A DNA stretch of 64,000 nt from Clostridia bacterium (lineage in GTDB: Bacteria > Bacillota > Clostridia > Christensenellales > Aristaeellaceae): the NCBI GenBank assembly GCA_017512985.1, contig JAFWEJ010000006.1:1-64000 (forward strand), given 5' to 3'. Each line of letters begins with the position of its first letter. Position 1 is the stretch's first letter. Position numbers and translations under genes: made by a program. The notes below the pieces were generated by a model. It had not been told where the DNA came from. It saw only the letters and a program-made list of their open reading frames with translations, and searched no databases. This document shows positions 12,227-38,910 of this stretch, piece after piece.

Positions 12227-13807
12227 TCAAACTCCACTGTTTCCGTAGTTGGAAAGCACCCTCGCTGAAGGATCGTCGACGTTGCAGCCTGGCCAGTCCT
12301 TGTTCGGCATCCAGAAGCCGGGGATCATGTGGGCCTGGCCGGGATAATACTGCTCGAACAGCTCCCGGTAGAGGAGACTCTCCTTCGTAAAGGGACGGCA
12401 GTAATCGTATTTCGCCGCCTTCTCCTCAAATTCCTTGTCCGTATATGTTCTTTCCGCGAGCGCTTTCAGGTCGTTGACCATGCTGTGGCCGACGGCATCG
12501 GAGAAAGCGGCCTTCTGGCGCCAGAGGATCTCATCCGGCAGGATGTGGTCGTCCGCGAAGGCTTTGCGGATCAGGTATTTGCCCATGTTGTGCCGGTTCA
12601 TCTTCAGCTCCGGATCGACGCTCATTGCGTAGCGGACGAACTTCAGGTCGCCGAAGGGTACCCGGGCCTCCAGGGAGTTGACGGAGATGCAGCGGTCCGC
12701 CCGGAGCACATCATAGGCGTGCAGCTCGCGGATGCGCTTTTCTGCTTCCTCCTGGAAGGCGGCGGCGGAAGGCGCGAAGTCTGTATATTTGTAGCCGAAA
12801 AGCTCGTCGGAGATCTCGCCGGTCAGCAGGACGCGGACGTCGGTGTTCTCATGGATCCACTTGCAGACCAGGTACATGCCGATGGACGCGCGGATGGTGG
12901 TGATGTCCCAGGTGCCCAGGAGCTCAACCACCGTGGGCAGGGCGTCCAGCACGTCCTTCTCGCTGATGATGACCTCCGTATGCTCGCTGCCGATATAGTC
13001 CGCGACCATGCGGGCGTATTTCAGGTCGATGGCGTCGATATCCATACCGATGGCGAAGGTGCGGATCGGCTTGTCCAGCATTTTCTGCGCGATGGCGCAG
13101 ACCAGGGAGGAGTCCAGGCCGCCGGAGAGCAGGAAACCGACCGGCGCATCCGCGTCCAGGCGCTTTTCCACGCCTTCCATCAGCAGGCGGCGCAGTTTGG
13201 GGCAGACTTCCTCTTCCGTTTTCATGGTGAAGTAACCGACATATGCGGGATCCGCGTACTGGACGAACTCACCGTCAATCCAGTAGTATCCGGGCGGGAA
13301 AGGAAGGATCGTGTCGCACATGCCGATCAGGTTTTTCGGTTCGCTGGCGAAGGCGATGCCGCCGTCCCGCACTTTGCCGTAATAGAGCGGGCGGATGCCG
13401 ATGGGATCACGGGCGGCGATCAGCTTTTTCTGCCGGTCGTCCCAGAGGATCAGGGCAAACTCCGCGTCCAGGGTTTTGAACATTTCCACGCCGTATTCGC
13501 GGTAGAGCGGAAGCAGGATCTCGCAGTCGCATTCGCTTTTGAGATCGTAGGTTTCCATCAGGCGGGCCCGCAGGGGGCGGAAGCCGTAAAGTTCGCCGTT
13601 GCAGACCACATAGTCGCCGTCCAGCCGGAAAGGCTGCATGCCTTCTTCGTGCAGGCCCATGATTGCCAGGCGGTGGAAACCGAGGACGCCGCCGGGGATG
13701 TCCACCATGCGGGTCATATCCGGGCCGCGGGAAACGGTCCGGTCAAAACAGGTTTTCATCAGGTCCCGGGGAAAGCGGGAGCCGATTGTACCGAAAATGC
13801 TGCACAT
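12227..13807 (-). CDS. asnB: Asparagine synthase (glutamine-hydrolysing)
   Basis: A 526-residue enzyme that makes asparagine from aspartate, glutamine and ATP. Met is followed directly by Cys2 (MCSIFGTIGSR), the Ntn glutaminase nucleophile exposed after Met removal, which fixes the start at 13807. GGAGTG lies 9 nt upstream. The synthetase P-loop is FLLSGGLDSSL near residue 220 and the substrate-loop motif SLEARVPF is near 375. Length fits AsnB. It follows dapL by 120 nt in the same direction; the gap contains two strong hairpins (CCAAGGGGC/GCCCCTTGG and TCGCACC/GGTGCGA) without T-runs. Confidence 0.96.
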   Translation of the reverse strand: MCSIFGTIGSRFPRDLMKTCFDRTVSRGPDMTRMVDIPGGVLGFHRLAIMGLHEEGMQPFRLDGDYVVCNGELYGFRPLRARLMETYDLKSECDCEILLPLYREYGVEMFKTLDAEFALILWDDRQKKLIAARDPIGIRPLYYGKVRDGGIAFASEPKNLIGMCDTILPFPPGYYWIDGEFVQYADPAYVGYFTMKTEEEVCPKLRRLLMEGVEKRLDADAPVGFLLSGGLDSSLVCAIAQKMLDKPIRTFAIGMDIDAIDLKYARMVADYIGSEHTEVIISEKDVLDALPTVVELLGTWDITTIRASIGMYLVCKWIHENTDVRVLLTGEISDELFGYKYTDFAPSAAAFQEEAEKRIRELHAYDVLRADRCISVNSLEARVPFGDLKFVRYAMSVDPELKMNRHNMGKYLIRKAFADDHILPDEILWRQKAAFSDAVGHSMVNDLKALAERTYTDKEFEEKAAKYDYCRPFTKESLLYRELFEQYYPGQAHMIPGFWMPNKDWPGCNVDDPSARVLSNYGNSGV

Positions 13808-13927
13808 ATCATTTTCACTCCAATTCAAAATAGAAGAGGATTTCGCACCTGCGGGTGCGACCAAGGGGCTTTCCGATTGCCCCTTGGAACCCTTCGGTCA
13901 GTATGCAATAAGGGGAAAGTATTTCAT

Positions 13928-15112
13928 TTATTTCTTTAACAGTTTTAACAGCCTTTTCGCGGCTTCGCGGGTGTCGGCGGGATCGCCGAAGGTGGAGAAG
14001 CGGAAAAATCCTTCGCCGCAGGCGCCGAATCCTTCGCCGGGGGTGCCGACGACCTGGATCTCGTTGAGCAGTTTATCGAAGAACTGCCAGCTGCCCATGC
14101 CGTCCGGGCACTGCATCCAGATGTAGGGCGCGTTCCTGCCGCCCCAGTAGCGGATCCCGGCTTCGTCCAGGGCTGCCATGAGCACCCGGGCGTTTTCCTT
14201 GTAGATCCGGATGTTGTCGTGGATCTGCTTCTGGCCTTCGTCCGTGAAGACGGCCGCGCCGCCTCGCTGCAGGATATAGGAAACGCCGTTGGTCTTAGTG
14301 GTGCGGTTCCGTACCCACATGGCGTTCAGGTTCAGGCCGCAGCGTTCCAGCGCCTTCGGGATCACGGTATAGCCGAGCCGGGTGCCGGTGAAGCCCGCTG
14401 TCTTGGACAGGGAGCAGATCTCGATCGCGCAGGTTTCAGCGCCGGGGATCTCAAAAATGCTGTGGGGCAGGTCTTCCTCAATAAAGGCTTCGTATGCCGC
14501 GTCAAAGAGGATCACCGCGCCGCGGGCGTTTGCCCATTCAACCCACTGGGTCAGCTGTTCCCGGTTGTAGGCCGCGCCGGTCGGATTGTTCGGGGAGCAC
14601 AGGTAGATCAGGTCCGCGTCCAGGCCGGGCTTCGGCAGGGGAAGAAAGTGATCGTCCGGGCCGGAGGGGAGGTGCGTGATCTCCCGCCCGGCCATGATAT
14701 TGGCGTCCACATAGGCGGGATAGGCCGGTTCCATGATCAGGGCACGGTTCGACTTATCGAACAGGTCGAGGATATCGCCCAGTTCATCGCTGGCGCCGCT
14801 GGAAACGAAGACCTCTTCCGGGGAAAGGAACACGTCGCGCTTCTGATAATGTTTCGCGATGGTTTCCCGGAGGGAGGGATCGCCGCATTCCGGCATATAA
14901 CCATGGAAGCTGGCCTTTACCCCCTGGTCGTCCACCGCCGCGTGCAGCGCCTCAATGACCGCGGGAACCAGGGGCAGGGAAACGTCCCCGATGCCCATGC
15001 GGTACAGGTGCTTGTCCGGGTGCTCCGCCAGGTAGGCTTTGGTCTTCTGGGCAATATGATAGAAGAGATAGGACTCTTTCAGATTCGCGTAGCTGAGGTT
15101 TGGTGTCAGCAT
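13928..15112 (-). CDS. dapL: LL-diaminopimelate aminotransferase
   Basis: A 394-residue fold-type I PLP enzyme that converts tetrahydrodipicolinate directly to LL-diaminopimelate for lysine and cell-wall synthesis. It matches DapL through MGIGDVSLPL, SDELGDI, the CSPNNPTGAA motif and the PLP lysine in SLSKTAGFTGTRLGY. GGAGGTGATCC stands before ATG 15112. It is the first gene after the nitrogen-type promoter and leader hairpin at 15241-15318, so the dapL-asnB-guaA run is probably under the same control as glnA. Confidence 0.93.
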   Translation of the reverse strand: MLTPNLSYANLKESYLFYHIAQKTKAYLAEHPDKHLYRMGIGDVSLPLVPAVIEALHAAVDDQGVKASFHGYMPECGDPSLRETIAKHYQKRDVFLSPEEVFVSSGASDELGDILDLFDKSNRALIMEPAYPAYVDANIMAGREITHLPSGPDDHFLPLPKPGLDADLIYLCSPNNPTGAAYNREQLTQWVEWANARGAVILFDAAYEAFIEEDLPHSIFEIPGAETCAIEICSLSKTAGFTGTRLGYTVIPKALERCGLNLNAMWVRNRTTKTNGVSYILQRGGAAVFTDEGQKQIHDNIRIYKENARVLMAALDEAGIRYWGGRNAPYIWMQCPDGMGSWQFFDKLLNEIQVVGTPGEGFGACGEGFFRFSTFGDPADTREAAKRLLKLLKK

Positions 15113-15240
15113 GGGATCACCTCCGAATCAATGAATAATGTACAATGAATAATGAATAATGATCCGCATCGATCTGCGCGGACGGGGAATTATTCCACTC
15201 CGCTTCGTTCCGGTCGAAATGACACAGAAATGGAATGAAA

Positions 15241-15282
15241 AACAAGGCAAACGGTCCTGTCGCAGGACGCCTTTGCCTTGTT
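15241..15282 (-). promoter_or_regulatory. dapL leader: hexaloop hairpin versus terminator
   Basis: The minus-strand transcript can form CAAGGC-[AAAGGC]-GUCCUG (15263-15280, one A-C mismatch). Alternatively it forms a long terminator-like stem, AACAAGGCAAA with UUUGCCUUGUU plus inner GUCCUG/CAGGAC, followed by a run of U. The two structures share the GGCAAAGGCGUCC segment. It matches the glnA, purF and amt leaders. Confidence 0.65.
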
Positions 15283-15289
15283 GGGAGGT

Positions 15290-15318
15290 ATGGTAACATT
15301 CAACTAACTGCTTGTCAA
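15290..15318 (-). promoter_or_regulatory. dapL-asnB-guaA promoter
   Basis: Minus-strand TTGACA (15313-15318) and TACCAT (15290-15295), spacer 17 nt. The leader hairpin begins within about 10 nt of the -10 box. Confidence 0.7.
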
Positions 15319-15371: not shown

Positions 15372-15400
15372 TTGACAGCCATCTGGCCCGGTGATAGGAT
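15372..15400 (+). promoter_or_regulatory. glnA promoter
   Basis: TTGACA (15372-15377) and TAGGAT (15395-15400) are separated by 17 nt. The predicted start lies just upstream of the leader hairpin. Confidence 0.75.
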
Positions 15401-15408
15401 ACGCGCAT

Positions 15409-15454
15409 CAGGGCAAGGGTGTCGTGCTTTCGACGCACCTTGCCCTCTTGTTTT
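15409..15454 (+). promoter_or_regulatory. glnA leader: hexaloop hairpin versus terminator
   Basis: CAGGGC-[AAGGGU]-GUCGUG (15409-15426, one G-G mismatch) overlaps the 5' arm of a terminator-like stem GGGCAAGG/CCUUGCCC (15411-15445) followed by a U-rich tract. The loop has A at position 1 and G at position 4, the rule described for ANTAR-protein targets. An ANTAR regulator is encoded directly downstream of glnA. Confidence 0.65.
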
Positions 15455-15480
15455 ATTGAATGACGAGGAGGTCACCAATT

Positions 15481-16812
15481 ATGAGCAAGTACACGAAGGA
15501 AGACATCATCCGTATGGTACGGGAAGACGACGTGGAATTTATCCGCATGCAGTTTACCGATATCTTCGGCCAGCTGAAGAACGTGGCGATTACCGCCAGC
15601 CAGATCGAAAAGGCCGTCAATAATGAGATCATGATCGACGGCAGCAGCATTGAGGGTTTTGTCCGCATTAATGAGAGCGACCAGTACCTGCGGCCCGACC
15701 TGGACACCTTCGCGATCCTGCCCTGGCGGCCCCAGCACGGAAAAGTCGCCAGGCTGATCTGCGACGTATACAACCCCGACGGAACGCCCTTCGCGGGAGA
15801 TCCCCGCGGCGTGCTGAAGAAGGTCCTGAAGCGGGCGGCCGACATGGGCTACTCCTTCAACGTCGGACCGGAGTGCGAGTTCTTCCTCTTCCAGACGGAC
15901 GAGGACGGCAACCCCACCACCACGACCTCGGACGAAGCAGGATACTTCGACCTCGGACCGCTGGATCACGGCGAGAGCACCCGCCGCGAGATCTGCATGG
16001 CGCTGGAGCAGATGGGCTTTGAAATTGAAGCCAGCCATCATGAAGTGGCTGCCGGCCAGCATGAGATCGACTTCCGCTACGCCGACGCGCTGACGGCCGC
16101 CGACAACATCATGACTTTCAAACTGGCGGTCAAGACGCTGGCCCAGAAGAACGGCCTGCATGCGACCTTCATGCCCAAGCCCGTGTTCGGCATCAACGGC
16201 AGCGGCATGCATACCAATATGAGCCTGTTCAAGGACGGCAAGAACGTCTTTGCAGATCCCGCCGACAAGCGCGGCCTGAGCAAGGAAGCCTATTCTTTCA
16301 TCGCCGGCATCCTGGCCCACATCCGGGGCATGGCCGCGATTACCAACCCGCTGGTCAACAGCTACAAGCGTCTGGTGCCCGGCTATGAAGCGCCCTGCTA
16401 CCTGGCCTGGAGCGCCAGCAACCGCAGCGCCCTGATCCGGATTCCCGCCGCCCGCGGCATGGGAACCCGTGTTGAACTGCGCTGCCCCGATCCGAGCGCG
16501 AACCCCTATCTGAACATGGCTGTCTGCCTGGCCGCCGGCCTGGACGGCATTGAGAAGGACATGACCCCGCCGGATGAAATCACCGAGAACATCTTCGCCA
16601 TGGATGCCGCAACCCGCGAAGCCAAGGGCATCAAGTCCCTGCCCGGCACGCTGAAGGAAGCCGTTGACTGCCTGAAGCAGGACGAAGTGATCTGCGCCTC
16701 CCTTGGCGAGCATGTGCTGAGCCAGTATGTGGAAGGCAAGGAAAAGGAGTGGGACGCTTACAGGACCCACGTCAGCAAGTGGGAGACTGACCGCTACCTC
16801 GTCATGTATTAA
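15481..16812 (+). CDS. glnA: Glutamine synthetase type I
   Basis: A 443-residue dodecameric enzyme that fixes ammonium onto glutamate. Length and motifs match Gram-positive [14 protein letters not shown], the metal site [20 protein letters not shown] and the ATP/glutamate region [21 protein letters not shown]. Start ATG 15481 has GAGGAGG 11 nt upstream; the longer ORF start is unsupported. The adenylylation loop of the enterobacterial GSI-beta type is absent. It opens the glnA-ANTAR-gltB-gltD unit and is preceded by the leader hairpin described separately. Confidence 0.97.
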
Positions 16813-16919
16813 TGAATAATGAACAATGAATAATGAACAATTGAATCATGGCACGGTATACCTGCAAAACGGTATATAGCATTATTCATTCTTAATTATC
16901 AATTATTCATTAATTTATT
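16810..16919. repeat. AT-rich inverted-repeat element between glnA and the ANTAR gene
   Basis: The left end begins TTAATGAATAATGAACAATG and the right end, inverted, begins TTAATGAATAATTGATAATT. The arms are about 35 nt and flank a 45-nt centre. Related TGAATAATG repeats occur near 15126-15166, with AATTCATAATTC at 12161-12192 and 39174-39186. It resembles a small MITE or REP-like intergenic element. In the transcript it would form a long hairpin. Confidence 0.5.
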
Positions 16920-16932
16920 GGAGGTGAAATCT

Positions 16933-17463
16933 GTGGCCAGGATTGTGATTGTCAGCCAGTCTGAAGACAGCCGAAACAAGCTATTCCGGCTTCTTACCTC
17001 CTCCGGATTTCAGGTATTCCGCAGCTGCTCATCGGGAAGTGAGCTGCGGCGGGCGCTGAGCGAAAGCGAAGACTGCGTTGTAGTGATGATCGGTTTCACA
17101 CCGGACTGCAAACCGGATGAACTGATGTGGGACTATAAGGACAGCATCCAGATCCTGCTGATCGCAAAGCAGCCGGTGCTGGAGAACATCGAATCGCCGG
17201 AGGTTTTCCGGCTCACGATGCCGGCCTCCGGGCAGGCCGTGATCGGCGCCGTGGAAATGCTGTCGCAGCTGCACCGGATGAAGCTGCCCCGGCGGACCGG
17301 AGAAAGCAAGGACATCGTGGACCGCGCGAAAGCCGTGCTGATGAAGCAGAAGGGGCTTTCCGAACCGGAAGCGCACCGCTCCATGCAGCAGTACGCGATG
17401 AACCACGGGATGAAGATGGCTGAATTCGCACAGCGGATTCTTGAGCAATCGGGGGAATTATAA
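16933..17463 (+). CDS. ANTAR-domain RNA-binding antiterminator of nitrogen genes
   Basis: A 176-residue protein with an N-terminal response-regulator-like fold (residues 1-110) and a C-terminal ANTAR domain (about 115-170: KDIVDRAKAVLMKQKGLSEP, then AHRSMQQYAMNHGMKMAEFA). The receiver lacks the phospho-acceptor Asp (VVMIGFTPD in its place), so it is a pseudo-receiver that probably senses by ligand or partner rather than by phosphorylation. Start GTG 16933 is chosen for GGAGGTG upstream; the TTG start at 16918 has none. It overlaps gltB by one base. Family members bind hexaloop hairpins and prevent termination, often at glnA, amt and glt genes. Confidence 0.9.
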   Translation: MARIVIVSQSEDSRNKLFRLLTSSGFQVFRSCSSGSELRRALSESEDCVVVMIGFTPDCKPDELMWDYKDSIQILLIAKQPVLENIESPEVFRLTMPASGQAVIGAVEMLSQLHRMKLPRRTGESKDIVDRAKAVLMKQKGLSEPEAHRSMQQYAMNHGMKMAEFAQRILEQSGEL

Positions 17464-20400
17464 TGAGGGACCGACAGTATCCTCTTTATCATGAAGAACT
17501 GGAACATGACAGCTGCGGCGTGGGCGCCGTGGTGGATCTGAACGCGAAAGCGACCCACCGGACCGTGGACCAGGCGCTGTGCATTGTGGAACGCCTGGCT
17601 CACCGGGCGGGCAGCGACGCGCAGGGAACTACCGGCGACGGCGTCGGCATTATGACGCAGCTGCCCCACACACTGTTTGCCGCCTGGGCCAGGGAAGAGG
17701 GAATTGCCCTGGGCAACCCGGGAGACTACGGCGTGGGTATGTTCTTCCTGCCGGAGGATGAGGTCGGCGCCCGGAATACGGCCGGAATTTTTGAACAGCT
17801 GGCGGAATCCGAAGGGATCCCGGTGCTGGGGTGGCGGGAGGTACCCTGCCACCCGGCCCAGCTGGGCGCCGGAGCGCGGCGGACGATGCCGTGCATCCGG
17901 CAGTGTTTTCTGAAAAGGCCGAAGGAGACCGCCGCCGGGCAGGACTTTGACCGGCGGCTTTATGTTTTACGCCGCGTTTTTGAACACCAGGACACGGACG
18001 CCTACGTCTGCTCCTTGTCCAGCCGCACGATTGTCTACAAGGGCATGATGCTGGTGAACCAGCTGCGTTCCTTCTACGACGACCTGCAGGATGTACGCTA
18101 CGCCAGCAGCATGGCGATGGTGCATTCCCGTTTTTCCACCAATACATTCCCTTCCTGGAGCAAGGCGCATCCCCAGCGGATGCTCCTGCACAACGGAGAA
18201 ATCAATACGATCCGGGGCAACCACGACCGCATGAAGGCCCGCGAGGAGACCATGCGCTCCGACGTGATGGGCGACGAGATGCGGCGGGTGCTGCCCGTGG
18301 TCGACAACGACGGCAGCGACAGCCAGATGCTCGACAATACGCTTGAGTTCCTGACGATGAACGGTTTCCCGCTGCCGCTGGCCGGTATGATCCTGCTGCC
18401 GGAACCCTGGCAGGGGCAGAAGAAGGAAACGCCCTGGAAGGATCTGTACCGTTATTATGCCACGATGATGGAGCCCTGGGACGGCCCAGCGGCGATCCTT
18501 TATTCCGACGGCGACACAGTCTGCGCGTCCCTGGACCGGAACGGCCTGCGGCCGCTGCGCTGCGCGCTGACTGACGACCGGCGCCTGATCCTCACATCCG
18601 AGGCGGGGGTGCTGTTTGAGGAGAACGCCCATATCCTGCGCCGGTGGAAACTGAAGGCCGGCGACGTGCTGGAAGCAGACCTGAAGACCGGCCGGCTCAC
18701 AGAGAGCGGCGAACTGAAATCCCGCTTCGCGCAGGAGCATCCCTATACCGAATGGATGAAGAAACTGGTGCGCCTGGCGGACCTGCCGGAGACGGAAGTG
18801 CCAGCGGAAGACCTTTCCGACGAACAGCGGGAGAAGCTCTGCAGGGCATTTCACTATACCTGGGAAGACATGCAGGACGTGGTGCTGCCGATGGCGGCGA
18901 AGGGTACGGAACCCATTGTTTCCATGGGCGCGGACGTGCCGGTGGCGGCGCTGTCGAAGACTCACCCGTCCGTTTACGATTATTTCCGCCAGCGTTTCGC
19001 GCAGGTGACGAACCCGCCGATTGACGCGCTGCGGGAAGAAGTGAAGACCGACTGCTCCATCTATGTCGGCGACGACGGCAACCTGCTTTCCCGGGAAGCC
19101 GCGAACAGCGCCGTGCTGGAGCTGCCCTCCCCGGTGCTGACCGAAGAGGAGCTGCAGCGGATCCGCGAGATGAAGCATGAGGACTTTTCCGTCCGTACTG
19201 TCTCCCTGCTCTATGACAAAAAAGGCAGCCTGCGGAACGCGCTGGAGCAGTTCTTTGCCGTGTGCGACCAGGCCTGCCGCGACCATATCAATATCCTGAT
19301 CCTGTCCGACCGGGGCGTGAGCGCAGAGAAGATGGCGATCCCGTCGCTGCTGGCGGTTTCCGCGCTGGAGCAGCACCTGATCCGGATCAAGAAGCGCACC
19401 GCGGTTTCCGTGATCCTGGAGAGCGGCGAGCCCCGGGATGTCCATCAGCTGGCCATGCTGATTGCCTTCGGCGCCCGGGCGGTGAACCCGTACCTGGCCC
19501 ATGCCTGCGTCCGCGCGATGTGCGCTGACGGACAGGTTGAGAAGGCACCGGAGGACGCGATCCGGGATTACGACAGGGCACTGACGGCCGGCGTGCTGAA
19601 GATCGCCTCGAAGATGGGCGTTTCCGTACTGCAGGCTTACCAGAGTGCCCAGCTGTTTGAGGCGGTCGGCCTGGACAGCGGGTTTGTCGACACCTATTTC
19701 ACGAACACCCCGTGCTCGCTCGGCGGGACAGACCTGAACCGGGTGGAAGCGGACAGCCGCTACCATCACGACGCGGCGTTCGCACCGGCGGCGCTGCCGG
19801 GCCTGCCCAGCGTGGGCACGCACAAATACAGGAGGAGTCCCGAAGCCGAGGAGCACCTCTATGCGCCGGAAACCATCCACCTGCTGCAGCAGGCGGTCTG
19901 GACGGACGACCGGGCAACCTTTGACAAATATGCCGCGCGGGTGGAGAACGAGGGACCGCAGACGATCCGCTCCATGCTCTCCTTCCGGTTTGACGCGTGC
20001 CGGCCTGTTCCGCTGGATAAGGTGGAACCGGCCAGCGAGATTGTCAAACGCTTCCGTACAGGCGCCATGAGCTACGGCTCCATTTCCCAGGAAGCGCACG
20101 AGTGCATGGCGAAGGCCATGAACCGCCTGGGCGGCCGCTCCAACAGCGGCGAGGGCGGCGAGCTGCCGGAACGCTTCGGCACGGAACTGAACTCCGCGAT
20201 CAAGCAGGTGGCCTCCGGCCGCTTCGGCGTGACGCGGGAATACCTGCTCTCCGCAAAGGAAATCCAGATCAAGATGGCGCAGGGCGCCAAGCCCGGCGAG
20301 GGCGGGCACCTGCCCGGCGCAAAGGTGACCGACAGCGTGGCGAAGACCCGCTGCTCCACTCCGGGGATCTCCCTGATTTCCCCGCCGCCGCACCATGATA

Positions 20401-21782
20401 TCTATTCCATTGAGGACCTGGCGGAACTGATTTACGACCTGCAGTGCGCGAACGAGGACGCGAAGATCACCGTGAAGCTGGTGGCGTCCGCGGGCGTGGG
20501 CACCATTGCCAGCGGTGTGGCCAAGGCCGGCGCCGGCGGCATCCTGATTTCCGGCGGCGAGGGCGGCACCGGCGCCGCACCCATGAGCAGCGTGCATCAC
20601 GCGGGCCTGCCCTGGGAGATCGGCCTGGCCGAAGCGCACCAGGTGCTCTGTCGCAACCGGCTGCGCCAGACGGTTACTCTGGAGACCGACGGCAAGCTCA
20701 TGACCGGGCACGACGTCATGGTGGCGCTGCTGCTCGGCGCGGAACAGTTCGGTTTTGCCACGGCGCCCCTGGTCACCATGGGCTGCCGGATGATGCGGGT
20801 CTGCCAGCTGGGCACCTGCCCGTTCGGCATCGCGACCCAGAATCCGGAACTGCGCAAGCGCTTCAAAGGCAAGCCTGAATATGTGGAACGGTTCATGCTC
20901 TTTATCGCGGAACAGATGCGGGAGATCATGGCGAAGCTCGGCGCGCGCACCGTGAACGAGCTGGTGGGCCGCAGTGACCTGCTGGCCGTGAAGGACAGCG
21001 CTGCAATGGATCTTTCCGACCTGACCGGATTTGCCCGGAACACTCACTTCCAGCCCGCCGCGAAGCATGACTTCCACCTGACGGAACGGGCTGACGCGCG
21101 GCTGTACCAGGACCATGTGCACCTGATGACCACCGACCGCGCCTTCGGTACGATGCTGAAGGGCGACCGGCATATCCAGGCCCAGGGCTGCGGCGGACAG
21201 AGCTTCGGCGCGTTCCTGGCCCGCGGGCAGGAGATCACGCTCTACGGCGTAGCGAACGACTACCTGGGCAAGGGCCTTTCCGGCGGCACGCTGGCGGTCT
21301 GTCCGCCCGCGGACAGCATCTGGAAGAAGGAAGACACCCTGATCGGCAATGTGGCACTCTACGGCGCGACGAGCGGCTACGCCTTTGTGGCCGGTATGGC
21401 GGGTGAACGCTTTGCCGTGCGCAATTCCGGCGCGTGGGCGGTTGTAGAAGGCGTGGGTGACCATGGCTGCGAGTACATGACCGGCGGCCGGGTGGCCGTG
21501 CTGGGCCCGGTGGGCGACAACTTTGCCGCGGGGATGAGCGGCGGCGTGGCGTGGGTGCTGGATGAGGACGGGCAGCTGCAAGACCGCCTGAACACCGGCC
21601 ATGTGAAACTCTATGAAGTATCCGACAAACAGGCGGATGAGCTGAACCGGCTGCTGGAGATGCACTTAAAAGCCACCGGTTCCGCAAAGGCAAAAGAGAT
21701 CCTGGAGCATTTCAAAGACTGGTTGCCGAAGTTCAAAGCGGTCATCTCGGACGAATACCTCAACTGGCTGAAGGGAGCGTGA
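17463..21782 (+). CDS. gltB: Glutamate synthase large (alpha) subunit
   Basis: A 1439-residue ferredoxin/NADPH-type GOGAT large subunit that transfers the glutamine amide to 2-oxoglutarate. The Ntn nucleophile is Cys18 (EHDSCGVG), so a 17-residue propeptide is expected to be removed. The FMN-binding synthase domain carries GEGGELPERFGTELNSAIKQ, KPGEGGHLPG and GAGGILISGGEGGTGA. The 3Fe-4S motif is CRMMRVCQLGTCPFG near residue 1115. A GXXGXXXG beta-helix region ends the protein. The ATG overlaps the ANTAR stop (TAATG), which implies translational coupling. Confidence 0.98.
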   Translation: MRDRQYPLYHEELEHDSCGVGAVVDLNAKATHRTVDQALCIVERLAHRAGSDAQGTTGDGVGIMTQLPHTLFAAWAREEGIALGNPGDYGVGMFFLPEDEVGARNTAGIFEQLAESEGIPVLGWREVPCHPAQLGAGARRTMPCIRQCFLKRPKETAAGQDFDRRLYVLRRVFEHQDTDAYVCSLSSRTIVYKGMMLVNQLRSFYDDLQDVRYASSMAMVHSRFSTNTFPSWSKAHPQRMLLHNGEINTIRGNHDRMKAREETMRSDVMGDEMRRVLPVVDNDGSDSQMLDNTLEFLTMNGFPLPLAGMILLPEPWQGQKKETPWKDLYRYYATMMEPWDGPAAILYSDGDTVCASLDRNGLRPLRCALTDDRRLILTSEAGVLFEENAHILRRWKLKAGDVLEADLKTGRLTESGELKSRFAQEHPYTEWMKKLVRLADLPETEVPAEDLSDEQREKLCRAFHYTWEDMQDVVLPMAAKGTEPIVSMGADVPVAALSKTHPSVYDYFRQRFAQVTNPPIDALREEVKTDCSIYVGDDGNLLSREAANSAVLELPSPVLTEEELQRIREMKHEDFSVRTVSLLYDKKGSLRNALEQFFAVCDQACRDHINILILSDRGVSAEKMAIPSLLAVSALEQHLIRIKKRTAVSVILESGEPRDVHQLAMLIAFGARAVNPYLAHACVRAMCADGQVEKAPEDAIRDYDRALTAGVLKIASKMGVSVLQAYQSAQLFEAVGLDSGFVDTYFTNTPCSLGGTDLNRVEADSRYHHDAAFAPAALPGLPSVGTHKYRRSPEAEEHLYAPETIHLLQQAVWTDDRATFDKYAARVENEGPQTIRSMLSFRFDACRPVPLDKVEPASEIVKRFRTGAMSYGSISQEAHECMAKAMNRLGGRSNSGEGGELPERFGTELNSAIKQVASGRFGVTREYLLSAKEIQIKMAQGAKPGEGGHLPGAKVTDSVAKTRCSTPGISLISPPPHHDIYSIEDLAELIYDLQCANEDAKITVKLVASAGVGTIASGVAKAGAGGILISGGEGGTGAAPMSSVHHAGLPWEIGLAEAHQVLCRNRLRQTVTLETDGKLMTGHDVMVALLLGAEQFGFATAPLVTMGCRMMRVCQLGTCPFGIATQNPELRKRFKGKPEYVERFMLFIAEQMREIMAKLGARTVNELVGRSDLLAVKDSAAMDLSDLTGFARNTHFQPAAKHDFHLTERADARLYQDHVHLMTTDRAFGTMLKGDRHIQAQGCGGQSFGAFLARGQEITLYGVANDYLGKGLSGGTLAVCPPADSIWKKEDTLIGNVALYGATSGYAFVAGMAGERFAVRNSGAWAVVEGVGDHGCEYMTGGRVAVLGPVGDNFAAGMSGGVAWVLDEDGQLQDRLNTGHVKLYEVSDKQADELNRLLEMHLKATGSAKAKEILEHFKDWLPKFKAVISDEYLNWLKGA

Positions 21783-31897: not shown

Positions 31898-31928
31898 AAC
31901 CGGGGAGAAGAACCTCCCCGGTTTTTTA
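31898..31928 (+). terminator. Terminator after the hydrolase gene
   Basis: AACCGGGGAG/CTCCCCGGTT with TTTTTT. The U-run overlaps the purF stop codon on the other strand. Confidence 0.85.
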
Positions 31929-33348
31929 TTCCGGCTGTACCGGGATCGGCTGCTCAAAGCGGCTTTTACCCTGGTCTTCCGGAATGTCGATGGGATACTT
32001 TCCGGTGAAGCATCCGTCGCAGAAGGAACAGCCCTGTTCCCCGGCGAGGCGGCGGGCGGCTTCCACGGACAGGTAGGCAAGGGAATCCGCGCCGATTTCG
32101 TCCGCGATTTCCTTCACGGAATGCAGGCGGCAAGCGATCAGGTTCTCCGCGGAATCCACGTCTGTGCCGAAGAAGCAGGGAAAACGGAACGGGGGAGAGG
32201 AGATCCGCATATGGACTTCCTTTGCGCCGGCTTCCCGCAGCAGGCGGACGATCCGTTCGCTGGTGGTGCCCCGGACGATGGAGTCGTCGATCAGGACGAC
32301 CCGCTTGTCCCGGACGGTATCCGCGATCACGTTCAGCTTGATCTTTACGGCGGTTTCGCGCATATCCTGGCTCGGGGCGATGAAGCTCCGGCCGATGTAT
32401 TTGTTCTTCAGGAAACCGACGCCGTAGGGGATGCCGCTTTGCCGGCTGTAACCCAGGGCCGCGTCGATGCCGGAGTCCGGTACACCGATGACCACGTCCG
32501 CCTCCACCGGACCCTCCTGCGCCAGGAACCGGCCGGCACGCAGCCGCGCCCGGTGAACCGGGGTTCCCTCAATGACGGAGTCCGGACGGGCAAAATAGAT
32601 ATATTCAAACACGCACAGGGCGCGGGCACCGCCGCACAGGCGGCGGTCCGAAACGACGCCCTCCTTGCCGAAGACAAGGATCTCTCCGGGATCAATATCC
32701 CGGATCAGTTTCGCCCCGACGGCGTCCAGGGCGCAGGATTCCGAGGAGACGACGTACGTGCCGTCCGGCGTCTGCCCGCAGCAGAGCGGGCGGAAGCCGT
32801 TCGGGTCCCGGAAAGCAATCAGTTTGGTCGCGGTCATCAGCACGCAGGAATAAGCCCCCTGCAGCTGCCGCATGGTCCGGTGGACGGCCTCCTCCGTGGC
32901 GGAAACCTTCAGCCGCTCGGACACGATGGTATAGACGATGGTTTCCGTGTCGGCCGTGCCGTGGAAGATGCCGCCGCTGAGCTCGTGCTGCGTGCGCAGG
33001 GAGCGGGCGTTCACCAGGTTGCCGTTGTGGCACAGGGCGAGGTTGCCCCTTCATATGGCTGATGACGATGGGCTGGATGTTGTTGTGGTTCTTTCCGCCG
33101 GTGGTGGAATAGCGGACATGGCCGACGGCAATGTTTCCTTCGCCGAGCCGGTCCAGGCGCTGACGGTCGAACACTTCGCCGACCAGGCCGTCGCCTTTGT
33201 GATGATGGAATACGCCGTCGCAGGAGACCGCGATGCCGCAGCTTTCCTGCCCCCTGTGCTGCAGCGCGTAGAGTCCGAGATAGACATCCCGGGGGACCGG
33301 CCTTTTTTCAGGGGACCAGACGCCGAAAACGCCGCATTCCTCATGCAT
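31926..33348 (-). pseudogene. purF: Amidophosphoribosyltransferase with a +1 frameshift
   Basis: First enzyme of purine synthesis, transferring glutamine amide nitrogen to PRPP. The N-terminal part (MHEECGVFGVW, Cys5 as nucleophile after a four-residue propeptide, LQHRGQESCG, GHVRYSTTGG) reads from 33348. The remainder (CHNGNLVNARSLR, the PRPP motif VVLIDDSIVRGTT, and the Fe-S-type CSFCDGC near the C terminus) is in another frame. The shift maps to the G4 run on the coding strand (CCCC, 33046-33049); three G would restore one 473-residue protein. Everything else is intact, so a homopolymer sequencing error is as likely as a mutation. It is preceded by a nitrogen-type promoter and leader hairpin. 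Confidence 0.85.
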
Positions 33349-33364
33349 ACAGGCTTCCTCCGAT

Positions 33365-33412
33365 AAAAGGAAAAGCGTCCTTCAGCCCGTGCCGAAGGAC
33401 GCCTTTGCCCTT
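33365..33412 (-). promoter_or_regulatory. purF leader: hexaloop hairpin versus terminator
   Basis: The minus-strand transcript can form the perfect six-pair hairpin AAGGGC-[AAAGGC]-GUCCUU (33395-33412). Alternatively it forms a terminator-like stem GCGUCCUUC/GAAGGACGC extended by GGCAAAG/CUUUUCC and ending in CCUUUUAU. The structures exclude each other. It is the best-formed of the four related leaders. Confidence 0.7.
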
Positions 33413-33422
33413 TGATATTCGG

Positions 33423-33451
33423 ATTGTACAACAGCGCCGCGCCGGTGTCAA
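33423..33451 (-). promoter_or_regulatory. purF promoter
   Basis: Minus-strand TTGACA (33446-33451) and TACAAT (33423-33428), spacer 17 nt; the hairpin starts about 10 nt downstream. Confidence 0.8.
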
Positions 33452-37057: not shown

Positions 37058-38776
37058 TTATTCGTCTTCGGACTGGAGGGCGTCGTATCCTTCTTCGCCG
37101 GTACGGACACGGACCACATTTTCAACATCCTGGACAAAGATCTTGCCGTCGCCGATATGGCCGGTATACAGGACGCTGCGGGCGGTTTCGATGACTTCGC
37201 TTACAGGCACCTTGCTGACGACAATATCCACCTGGACCTTCGGCAGGAGCGTGACTTCCACAGGAGTGCCGCGGTAATACTCGGGCTTGCCCTTCTGCGC
37301 GCCGTAGCCCATGACGTTGGTGACCGTCATACCGGTGATGCCGATGCCGTTCATGGCCTTCTTCAGGCTCTCCAGGCTGGCAGGGCGGCAGATGATCTGT
37401 ACGCGGGTGTAAACCGGTTCGCCTTCCGCCTTCGCGGGCTTCTTTGCCACGGGTACGGCTTCCGCGACGGGAGCCGCTTCAACCATGGGCGCGGCGGCAG
37501 CGGCGGGAACCTCATATCCTTCTTCAGGAACAATCGCAAATCCGGAATAAGCGGTGAGCAGGCCGTGTTCGCTGCGGTCCATACCGATGATCTCGTCCTC
37601 GGTGCTTGCCCGCAGACCGATGGTCTTTTTGATCACCTGGAAGACAACGGTGATGACCGTCGCGGTCCAGGCGATTGTGCACAGCACGCCGAGGGCCTGG
37701 ACACCGAGGAATTTGAACCCGCCGCCGTAGAAGACACCCTTCATGGTGGTGCCGCCGGTGGCGAACAGGCCGGTCAGGATTGTGCCCAGGGCGCCGCAGA
37801 CGCCGTGGACGGAGATCGCGCCGACCGGGTCGTCGATCCTGGCGACTTTGTCGAAGAATTCAACCGCGAGGACGATCACGATGCCGCAGGCCAGGCCGAT
37901 GATCGCCGCGCCGAAGGGATTGACCGCGTCGCAGCCCGCTGTGATGCCGACCAGGCCGGCCAGAGCGGCGTTGAAGGTCATGGAAACATCCGGCTTGCCG
38001 TAGCGCAGCCAGGTAAAGATCATGGTGGTCAGAGTCGCGACGGCAGCGGCCAGGTTCGTGTTGAAGAAGACCAGCGAAGCGCTGCCGATCGCGTCATCGC
38101 TGTCCATGGCCACGGTGGAGGCACCGTTGAAACCGAACCAGCAGAACCAGAGGATGAACACGCCCAGGGCCGCGATGGACAGGTTGTGGCCGAGGAACGC
38201 GCGGGGCTTTCCGTCCTTGCCGTACTTGCCGACGCGGGGTCCGAGGATCTTCGCGCCGACCAGGGCGCACACGCCGCCGACCATATGCACGGCCGTGGAA
38301 CCGGCAAAATCATGGAAACCCATTTCAGCCAACCAGCCGCCGCCCCAGATCCAGTGGCCGGAGACCGGATAGATGAACAGCGAAATCGCCGCGGAATAGA
38401 TGCAGTAAGCGGAGAACTTTGTGCGCTCAGCCATGGCGCCGGAAACGATCGTGGCGGAGGTGGCGCAGAAGACGGTCTGGAAGATTGCGAACGCCCACAG
38501 CGGAACGCCCGCCGGGAGGATATGGCTGTAATCCTTCATGATGAAAGGATCGATCCAGCCGAACAGCGCGGTGCCCGCGCCGAACATGATACCGTAACCA
38601 ATGAGCCAGTAGAGGGGAGTACCGATGCAAAAGTCCATCAGGTTCTTCATCAGGATGTTGCCTGTGTTCTTCGCGCGGGTGAAGCCCGCCTCGCACATTG
38701 CGAAGCCCGCCTGCATAAAGAAGACCAGCGCGGCTCCGAGGAGTACCCAGATTGTGTTTGCTGCAGAGAATGCCAT
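37058..38776 (-). CDS. amt: Ammonium transporter fused to a PII signal-protein domain
   Basis: A 572-residue fusion. Residues 1-410 are an Amt channel with eleven membrane segments, the [21 protein letters not shown] terminus and the pore twin histidines His164 (TAVHMVGG) and His324 (ISVHGVCG). Residues 424-455 are an Ala/Pro/Val linker. Residues 456-572 are a complete GlnK/GlnB domain with the T-loop [13 protein letters not shown] (Tyr501 at the usual Tyr51 position), VDIVVSK and the C-terminal [20 protein letters not shown]. Normally amt and glnK are separate genes and GlnK plugs the channel; here the regulator is tethered. GGAGTG precedes ATG 38776. The gene has a nitrogen-type leader hairpin. 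Confidence 0.95.
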
Positions 38777-38831
38777 ACAGATCACTCCGTTTCTGAGAAT
38801 ATTCCCGGCAGTACGCCTTTGTACAAAGAAA

Positions 38832-38867
38832 GAGGCGCCAGGTGCTTTAAGCACACCTTTGCGCCTC
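38832..38867 (-). promoter_or_regulatory. amt leader: hexaloop hairpin versus terminator
   Basis: The minus-strand transcript can form AGGCGC-[AAAGGU]-GUGCUU (38849-38866; six pairs including two G-U). Alternatively it forms a terminator-like stem GAGGCGC/GCGCCUC with inner AGGUGxGCUU/AGCACCU, followed by UUUCUUUG. Same layout as the glnA, dapL and purF leaders. Confidence 0.7.
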
Positions 38868-38881
38868 ATCGGGATGCACGG

Positions 38882-38910
38882 ATTTTATGCCTGTCGCAAA
38901 CGTTTGTCAA
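38882..38910 (-). promoter_or_regulatory. amt promoter
   Basis: Minus-strand TTGACA (38905-38910) and TAAAAT (38882-38887), spacer 17 nt. Confidence 0.8.

Follow-up and report, generated by a model that had tools for sequence, protein, structure and literature searches.

Four nitrogen-related transcription units of a Clostridia genome, apparently from a gut bacterium, begin with the same compact leader, in which a single hexaloop hairpin lies close behind the promoter and shares bases with an intrinsic terminator. Based on sequence comparisons within the family, class, and phylum, the one-hexaloop leader is real and widespread, and it is well supported as a putative form of ANTAR antitermination. 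These leaders are very likely attenuators at which an ANTAR protein binds the lone hexaloop and blocks the terminator, without the upstream recruitment hairpin (P1). On balance, we also favor the broader reading that many Clostridia, along with bacteria elsewhere in the phylum, control a glutamine regulon by an ANTAR protein acting on one 5' hexaloop without a recruitment hairpin. In this family the protein would act without a phosphorylatable receiver and full coiled coil, and in other lineages serial one-loop attenuators would precede glnN.

Leaders and genes of the window and its genome

The window (i.e., the whole analyzed stretch of 64,000 nucleotides) carries four such transcription units, glnA-ANTAR-gltB on the + strand and dapL-asnB, purF, and an amt-PII fusion on the - strand. 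In all four leaders, TTGACA-17-TANNNT is followed by a C[AARGGY]G hairpin that lies within the 5' portion of a strong terminator. Promoters were located by sequence reading and a promoter-plus-loop scan, hairpins by sequence and a pattern scan, and terminators by sequence and folding. The glnA leader (+) consists of the promoter TTGACA-17-TAGGAT (15372..15400), the hairpin GGC[AAGGGU]GUC (15407..15428, loop 15415-15420), and an overlapping terminator stem with its U-rich tail (15410..15454). On the - strand, dapL-asnB has TTGACA-17-TACCAT (15290..15318), GGC[AAAGGC]GUC (15261..15282, loop 15274-15269), and a terminator with U-rich tail at 15238..15283. The purF leader (-) has TTGACA-17-TACAAT (33423..33451), GGC[AAAGGC]GUC (33393..33414, loop 33406-33401), and terminator and U-rich tail at 33364..33412. 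For amt-PII (-), the corresponding elements are TTGACA-17-TAAAAT (38882..38910), GCGC[AAAGGU]GUGC (38847..38868, loop 38860-38855), and a terminator with U-rich tail at 38826..38868. The preliminary description had read TTGACA-17-N6 and the hexaloops AAGGGU, AAAGGC, AAAGGC, and AAAGGU, closed by C-G and then G-U, and all four leaders read so. Folding of the first 75 nt (MFE -32 to -34 kcal/mol) likewise confirmed its view that each hairpin segment helps to form a terminator-like stem, which is followed by a U-rich tail.

Promoter plus loop gave four matches in the window versus 0.01 expected, and the 10-mer GCAARGGYGT alone gave four versus 0.63 expected; in both cases, four matches were reached in 0/100 shuffles. 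Stem quality is unequal: the purF and amt hairpins have six contiguous pairs, and those of glnA and dapL have three pairs, a mismatch (G.G and A.C, respectively), and then two more pairs. The spacing from the -10 element to the loop is 14, 15, 16, and 21 nt across the four leaders. Transcription generally starts about 7 nt past the -10 element; if it does so here, the hairpin would begin at or just past +1 in glnA and dapL, and a few nucleotides later in amt. Directly past the amt terminator lies a second hexaloop, GUAC[AAAGGC]GUAC (38811-38824, -), which is not visible in a relative of the same genus (L109).

The first unit encodes glutamine synthetase (glnA, 15460..16812, +; Pfam PF00120/PF03951), followed by the ANTAR protein gene (16918..17463, +; profile search) and directly 3' of it gltB, the large subunit of glutamate synthase (17463..21782, +; profile/ORF). 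The GGAGG preceding a GTG at 16933 makes this codon the probable true start of the ANTAR gene. The leaders proposed for "dapL" and "amt-PII" units were both recovered, and the units themselves can be described more exactly: LL-diaminopimelate aminotransferase (dapL, 13928..15112, -; TIGR03542) is followed on the same strand by asparagine synthase (asnB, 12227..13864, -; profile/ORF), and the ammonium transporter and PII domain are fused in one ORF (37058..38776, -; profile/ORF), whose start at 38776 was deduced from sequence (the longest ORF extends to 38869). The purF-like gene encodes glutamine amidotransferase and phosphoribosyltransferase domains (31926..33347, -; profile/ORF). Its frame is broken near 33040 (33040-33050, -) by an apparent one-base shift that may be a MAG assembly error.

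The genome (89.67% complete) contains one PF03861 (ANTAR) match, encoded between glnA and gltB. A promoter-plus-hairpin RNA model (R1) was built from 50 aligned leaders, and its top seven matches in this genome precede gdhA (C12:33064), glnA, glmS (C17:92780), purF, dapL-asnB, amt-PII, and a Na+/alanine-type symporter gene (C9:211987; E 0.007). Five of these seven leaders were part of the model; the amt and symporter leaders were not. The regulon is larger than the four units first claimed, including gdhA, glmS, and the symporter in this genome and extending beyond it. The gene names of these R1 matches rest on Pfam matches of same-family homologues and on ORFs. The eighth match (E 0.07) directly starts a gene and looks like a ribosome site. 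A weak match at C14:119704 (L346; E 0.16) precedes a MAAFD/MAAFE-type protein. No Rfam family reached its gathering score in the window.

Recurrence and conservation of the one-hexaloop leader

A strict promoter-plus-stem pattern occurs in 51/150 genomes of the family and in 0/150 reversed controls. We took 80 family regions, most of them around pattern matches and ten around ANTAR genes without a match. According to ORFs and Pfam, the leaders precede glnA, amt-PII, dapL, asnB, and gltB, as well as gdhA, glmS, pyrG, symporter genes, and glnN. The recurrence in relatives before amt, glnA, gltB, and asnB, with covariation of the stem, is what the check proposed in the preliminary description had looked for. 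Behind two family leaders lies a gene whose product starts with MAAFD and matches no Pfam profile above the cut-off, and MAAFD/MAAFE proteins, of unknown function, follow the leader in L159, L163, L276, and L346. Three pattern matches look false: L121 and L170 have no terminator, and L145 looks like the ribosome site of glmS. A looser pattern matched in 126/150 family genomes and was not used for counts because many of its matches are Shine-Dalgarno-like.

A wider collection over all loci, which required a promoter, a loop with G4, a T-run, and a fold below -10 kcal/mol, yielded 148 leader-like matches, with identical leaders counted once and several loci sharing a genome. After dropping seven without an assigned gene, 141 leaders remained (glnA 75, amt 34, dapL 12, asnB 5, glmS 4, gdhA 3, symporter 2, MAAFD 2, pyrG 2, glnN 1, and gltB 1). 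The purF leader is missing from this automatic set, and a break in its U-tract (UUUUCCUUUU) is the probable cause; the pattern brought this leader into the aligned set, R1, and the covariation test instead.

Covariation was tested on an eight-pair stem in 50 motif-selected leaders against 500 shuffles, which ignore relatedness. The covariation score was 0.402 versus 0.198 in shuffled alignments (0/500 reached it), and slid versions of the stem gave 0.087-0.146. Standard pairs made up 72.8% versus 59.2% shuffled, and two-sided changes numbered 64 versus 32.8. Further pair types numbered 25 versus 20.9 (4/500 shuffles reached this), and the count of pairs that carry at least one two-sided change showed no excess (6 versus 5.8 shuffled). 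Pair 3 varies (GC 37, CG 7, AU 2, GU 2, other 2) and pair 4 is unpaired in 23/50 leaders. The loop AAAGGC also stands on wholly different stems, GAAAC/GUUUC in L174 and AAUGAAC/GUUCAUU in L177.

The new specificity elements once proposed (A2, G5, and the G-U pair) did not survive this comparison. Pair 2 is GU in 26, GC in 18, and AU in 6 of the 50 leaders, ruling out a conserved G-U pair as a specificity element, and the published eut 13-mer already contains A2 and a purine at position 5. The first loop base is A in 139/141 leaders and G in two, and G4 was required by the search.

The terminator and the hairpin share bases throughout: in all 141 leaders, a set preselected for a T-run and a fold below -10 kcal/mol, the MFE fold of the terminator takes nine or more of the 22 hairpin bases, with a median of 14. 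With its closing pair forced, the hairpin alone has a median of -5.5 kcal/mol versus -23.3 for the leader, and it is the MFE structure in 0/141 leaders, as expected for a protein-stabilized antiterminator.

To avoid the circularity of motif selection, loci were also taken by similarity to the ANTAR protein. The best 80 of 198 relatives, mostly rumen and gut MAGs labeled Clostridia or Clostridiales, with some Christensenella and two Solobacterium, provided 66 distinct glnA upstream regions. Without any stem or closing-pair condition, all 66 have a promoter and an RRRGG-type loop 9-26 nt past the -10 element, and with G4 required, the loop starts with A in 65. Standard pairs were found at pair 1 in 64, pair 2 in 65, and pair 3 in 62 of these regions (the failing rows include L256, read in the wrong register, and L245, whose closing pair is broken). 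Pair 4 does not form in 57/66, where purine often faces purine. Even though folding was not preselected here, 61/66 regions fold below -10 kcal/mol with a T-run; L181 and L182 have no T-run as defined. Among the regions from these best 80 relatives, 64 were scored for a further hexaloop lying 5' of the hairpin but past the presumed start, and 0/64 had one, in a scoring that required a two-pair stem, missed L245 and L247, and included two spurious loops (ATCGGG).

Beyond the family, the strict pattern occurs in 22/291 genomes of the class (reversed control: 1). There were 22 class matches outside the window's own genome, of which two with the loop AAAGGA (L266 and L281) were set aside and one (L275) is cut by a contig end. 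The remaining 19, with ORFs assigned by eye, precede glnN (12), gdhA (2), glnA (1), and, once each, a purC-like gene (SAICAR_synt), an asparagine-synthase-like amidotransferase, a probable amidotransferase, and an unknown MAAFE protein. Seven of 20 class leaders (L262, L267, L269, L270, L277, L278, and L282) have a second hexaloop module 67-98 nt on, past the T-run of the first terminator, upstream of a glnN, purC-like, or amidotransferase gene. Applied with strict filters to 299 phylum genomes, R1 gave 21 matches in 14 genomes other than the own one; one of these matches (L367) is a locus already in R1. Their ORFs are glnN (11), asparagine-synthase-like (3), gltB (1), and amt (1), with L372 and L379 without gene assignment; a further three encode a protein that is presumably a glutamate-synthase amidotransferase domain and had no Pfam match on its first 90 residues. 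Class and phylum leaders thus mostly precede type III glutamine synthetase (glnN). Eight loci searched against Rfam at relaxed stringency (E up to 1) yielded two matches, the T-box of L177 and, below threshold, an sRNA in L276. The T-box-like element (L177 2202-2403, +) scores 74.9 bits versus a gathering score of 93.

ANTAR proteins and the number of hairpins

The ANTAR protein scores 63.5 bits against PF03861 (cut-off 27.3), and its closest solved relatives are 6wsh, 1s8n (Rv1626), 4akk (nitrate regulatory protein), and 1qo0 (AmiR). We take 6wsh to be EutV, as residue spacing fits the published EutV numbering, and 4akk to be NasR. In the alignment, the EutV RNA contacts K149, E160, and M172 correspond to the invariant K138, E149, and M161, and the G4-stacking Tyr164 and R168 correspond to His153 and Gln157. 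The receiver, aligned by eye, has neither the phosphate-accepting Asp nor the acidic pocket (aligned Ile58, Ser13-Gln14), so control may come via another protein, e.g., glutamine synthetase or a PII domain. The linker before the ANTAR domain is about eight residues shorter than in EutV, and Pro124 is invariant in two alignments, of 12 and 40 relatives; both features may interrupt the continuous coiled coil expected for dimerization. A short linker was considered as the cause of the one-hairpin design and rejected as a requirement, given that the genomes of L174 and L177 combine a long-linker ANTAR protein (L048 and L057) with a one-hairpin leader. In some family members (L044, L046, and L067), a long-linker ANTAR gene adjoins pyrG.

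Leaders and ANTAR genes co-occur. In the family, ANTAR is present in 44/46 leader genomes versus 42/104 others (Fisher 1.6e-11, uncorrected for relatedness), and in the class, in 19/20 versus 126/271 (1.1e-5, likewise uncorrected). Genomes with no strict match other than one carrying AAAGGA, a Shine-Dalgarno-like loop (5/51 in the family, of which 1/5 has ANTAR, and 2/22 in the class) were counted as non-leader genomes; counted as leader genomes, they bring ANTAR to 45/51 and 20/22. At least two of the 46 family leader genomes (G033 and G104) rest on false-looking matches (L121 and L170), and both have ANTAR. The two family leader genomes without ANTAR are 68% and 77% complete. In the class, genome G192 (97% complete) has two leader loci (L262 and L282) and no PF03861 match, and possibly has a divergent ANTAR protein or another binder. 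Of the 86 ANTAR-bearing family genomes, 42 have no strict match, some of them with leaders outside the strict pattern. Among the best-scoring ANTAR loci, 25/30 in the family and 17/30 in the class have a glnA-like gene no more than about 1.5 kb away.

To determine whether P1 is present, 165 promoter-linked leaders were compiled (the 141, 20 at class level, and the window's four, including three repeats). A minimal P1 would fit in 14/165, and one marginal P1-like hairpin was found, UUA[AAGGCA]UGG in L094. When the promoter was ignored, the 70 nt upstream of the 165 leaders contained a single C-closed hexaloop in total. The features published for ANTAR targets are otherwise present (A1/G4 hexaloop, stem of at least 3 bp, overlapping terminator, and ANTAR in the genome); the published dual-hexaloop form, with two tandem hairpins before the terminator, is not that of these leaders.

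A dual-hexaloop scan (stems of at least 4 bp, T-run, and fold) of L001-L260 and the window (1.17 Mb) gave 13 matches. By eye, 12 were judged not to be dual leaders, being coding sequence or, in L231, L247, and L253, the one-loop amt hairpin plus an inner terminator hairpin. The amt leader of L254, which has no promoter match, may have a second hexaloop, CCUG[AGGGAU]CAGG, 16 nt upstream. No match was found in L261-L317. A like scan did reveal dual loops upstream of glnA in L320 and L324, from two further genomes of the class, showing that dual motifs can be detected and that both designs exist within the class. L247, L253, and L254 are amt-type attenuators (- strand) that follow another gene and have no promoter match; not every leader is therefore promoter-proximal.

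Proposed mechanism and relation to known systems

By default, the first 40-50 nt of the transcript would fold as an intrinsic terminator that halts RNA polymerase. Under scarcity of nitrogen or glutamine, the presumed signal, the ANTAR protein encoded in the glnA-gltB gap would bind the single C[AARGGN]G hairpin, and because this hairpin shares bases with the 5' part of the terminator, the latter would be blocked and the nitrogen gene transcribed by readthrough. One small hairpin would suffice, with no upstream recruitment hairpin P1, and control may be exerted through a protein partner. The preliminary description had already placed ANTAR control at a single promoter-proximal hairpin, and this part of it now has strong but indirect support from the single ANTAR gene, recurrence, covariation, co-occurrence, and the almost complete absence of a second hairpin; its specificity elements have been abandoned.

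The need for two hairpins comes from the eut system of Enterococcus faecalis, where the passages cited here report that EutV requires a dual hairpin with the 13-mer AGCAANGRRGCUY, that deletion of P1 abolishes induction, and that a lone stem-loop binds ANTARcc poorly (Ramesh 2012; PMC3369931). In the cited account of Walshe 2022, contacts between ANTAR and RNA are confined to one hexaloop, yet antitermination needs both; EutV binds isolated P1 or P2 about equally, and a longer linker abolishes antitermination in vitro (PMC8934654). If this rule holds generally, the second loop would have to come from another nascent RNA bridged by the dimer, from a downstream hexaloop, or from a longer transcript of an upstream promoter. 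EutV is indeed a dimer with two sites (PMC8934654), the window's amt unit has a hexaloop just past its terminator, seven class-level leaders have a second module further on, and L254 may be dual. We nevertheless regard this as unlikely, since the serial loops lie 67-98 nt on, past the first T-run, the amt loop is not seen in L109, a single upstream C-closed hexaloop was found across all 165 leaders, and Walshe et al. call binding in trans unlikely (PMC8934654).

That a nitrogen regulator other than the ANTAR protein binds the hairpin would fit the G192 leaders without a PF03861 match and the His in place of the G4-contacting Tyr, yet it is very improbable given the strong co-occurrence in two samples, the glnA-like genes near ANTAR (25/30 and 17/30 best-scoring loci), and a loop that fits both the A1/G4 rule and the eut 13-mer. 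The leaders could also be plain promoter-proximal terminators or 5' stabilizing hairpins, with the hexaloop a by-product of terminator sequence. The 61/66 glnA regions (from the best 80 of 198 relatives) that fold below -10 kcal/mol without preselection agree with this, and terminator function demands part of the hairpin's conservation. We give such an origin scarcely any weight, because the pairs of the hexaloop stem covary, L174 and L177 keep the loop on different stems, and a bare terminator would silence glnA.

Returning to ANTAR binding at a lone hexaloop: if it is true, the need for two hairpins is a property of eut-type systems and not of ANTAR antitermination. In their cited text, Walshe et al. 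posed the role of single hexaloops as a question, called for more bioinformatics, and foresaw single sites where there is no time constraint (PMC8934654); the leaders described here are a large natural set for this question. Further literature consulted comprises PMC8164766, PMC3369936, and PMC8632094. In the literature searched, with subscription journals and supplements outside its scope, we recognized no report of one-hexaloop ANTAR attenuators, and prior mention, e.g., in Ramesh's tables, is possible. Searches with a dual-hairpin model could have passed over one-hairpin leaders. The whole binding event would have to take place within about 10-20 nt of transcription before the end of the U-tract, which would put the recruitment model to a demanding kinetic test. 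The leaders also hint at the way in which many Clostridia of gut and rumen regulate the synthesis of glutamine, asparagine, purines, and amino sugars.

Among RNA families before nitrogen genes, we take RF01739 to be the glutamine riboswitch. This cyanobacterial glnA RNA resembles the present leaders in preceding PII, glutamine synthetase, and amt genes, there sometimes in tandem, and differs in being described in the cited text as an aptamer candidate (PMC2864571); Rfam gave no match to the window at gathering score. Closest is EutV/eut, with which the leaders share the A1/G4 hexaloop, a stem of at least 3 bp over an intrinsic terminator, an ANTAR protein, and nitrogen-related genes (PMC3369931, PMC8934654), and whose 13-mer with a C-G closing pair fits their loop (PMC3369931). 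Unlike eut, which has two hexaloops, they have one, at the presumed 5' end of the transcript, and unlike in EutV, the receiver of the ANTAR protein lacks the phosphate-accepting Asp, and its linker in this family is about eight residues shorter and has an invariant Pro. NasR/nasF and AmiR/amiE likewise use ANTAR antitermination by hexaloop hairpins, with two hairpins each in the published model (PMC3369931), and AmiR, too, has a pseudo-receiver (PMC8934654). A single alternative hairpin that overlaps a terminator is known from the RAT of SacY/BglG (PMC3369931), where a protein of another family recognizes the stem rather than a hexaloop. The regulon itself, finally, resembles those of ANTAR-target RNAs in Desulfotomaculum acetoxidans and other bacteria (PII, ammonium transporter, and glutamine and glutamate synthase genes); as described in the source, these targets came from a dual-hairpin model, which was not built for one-hairpin leaders (PMC3369931).
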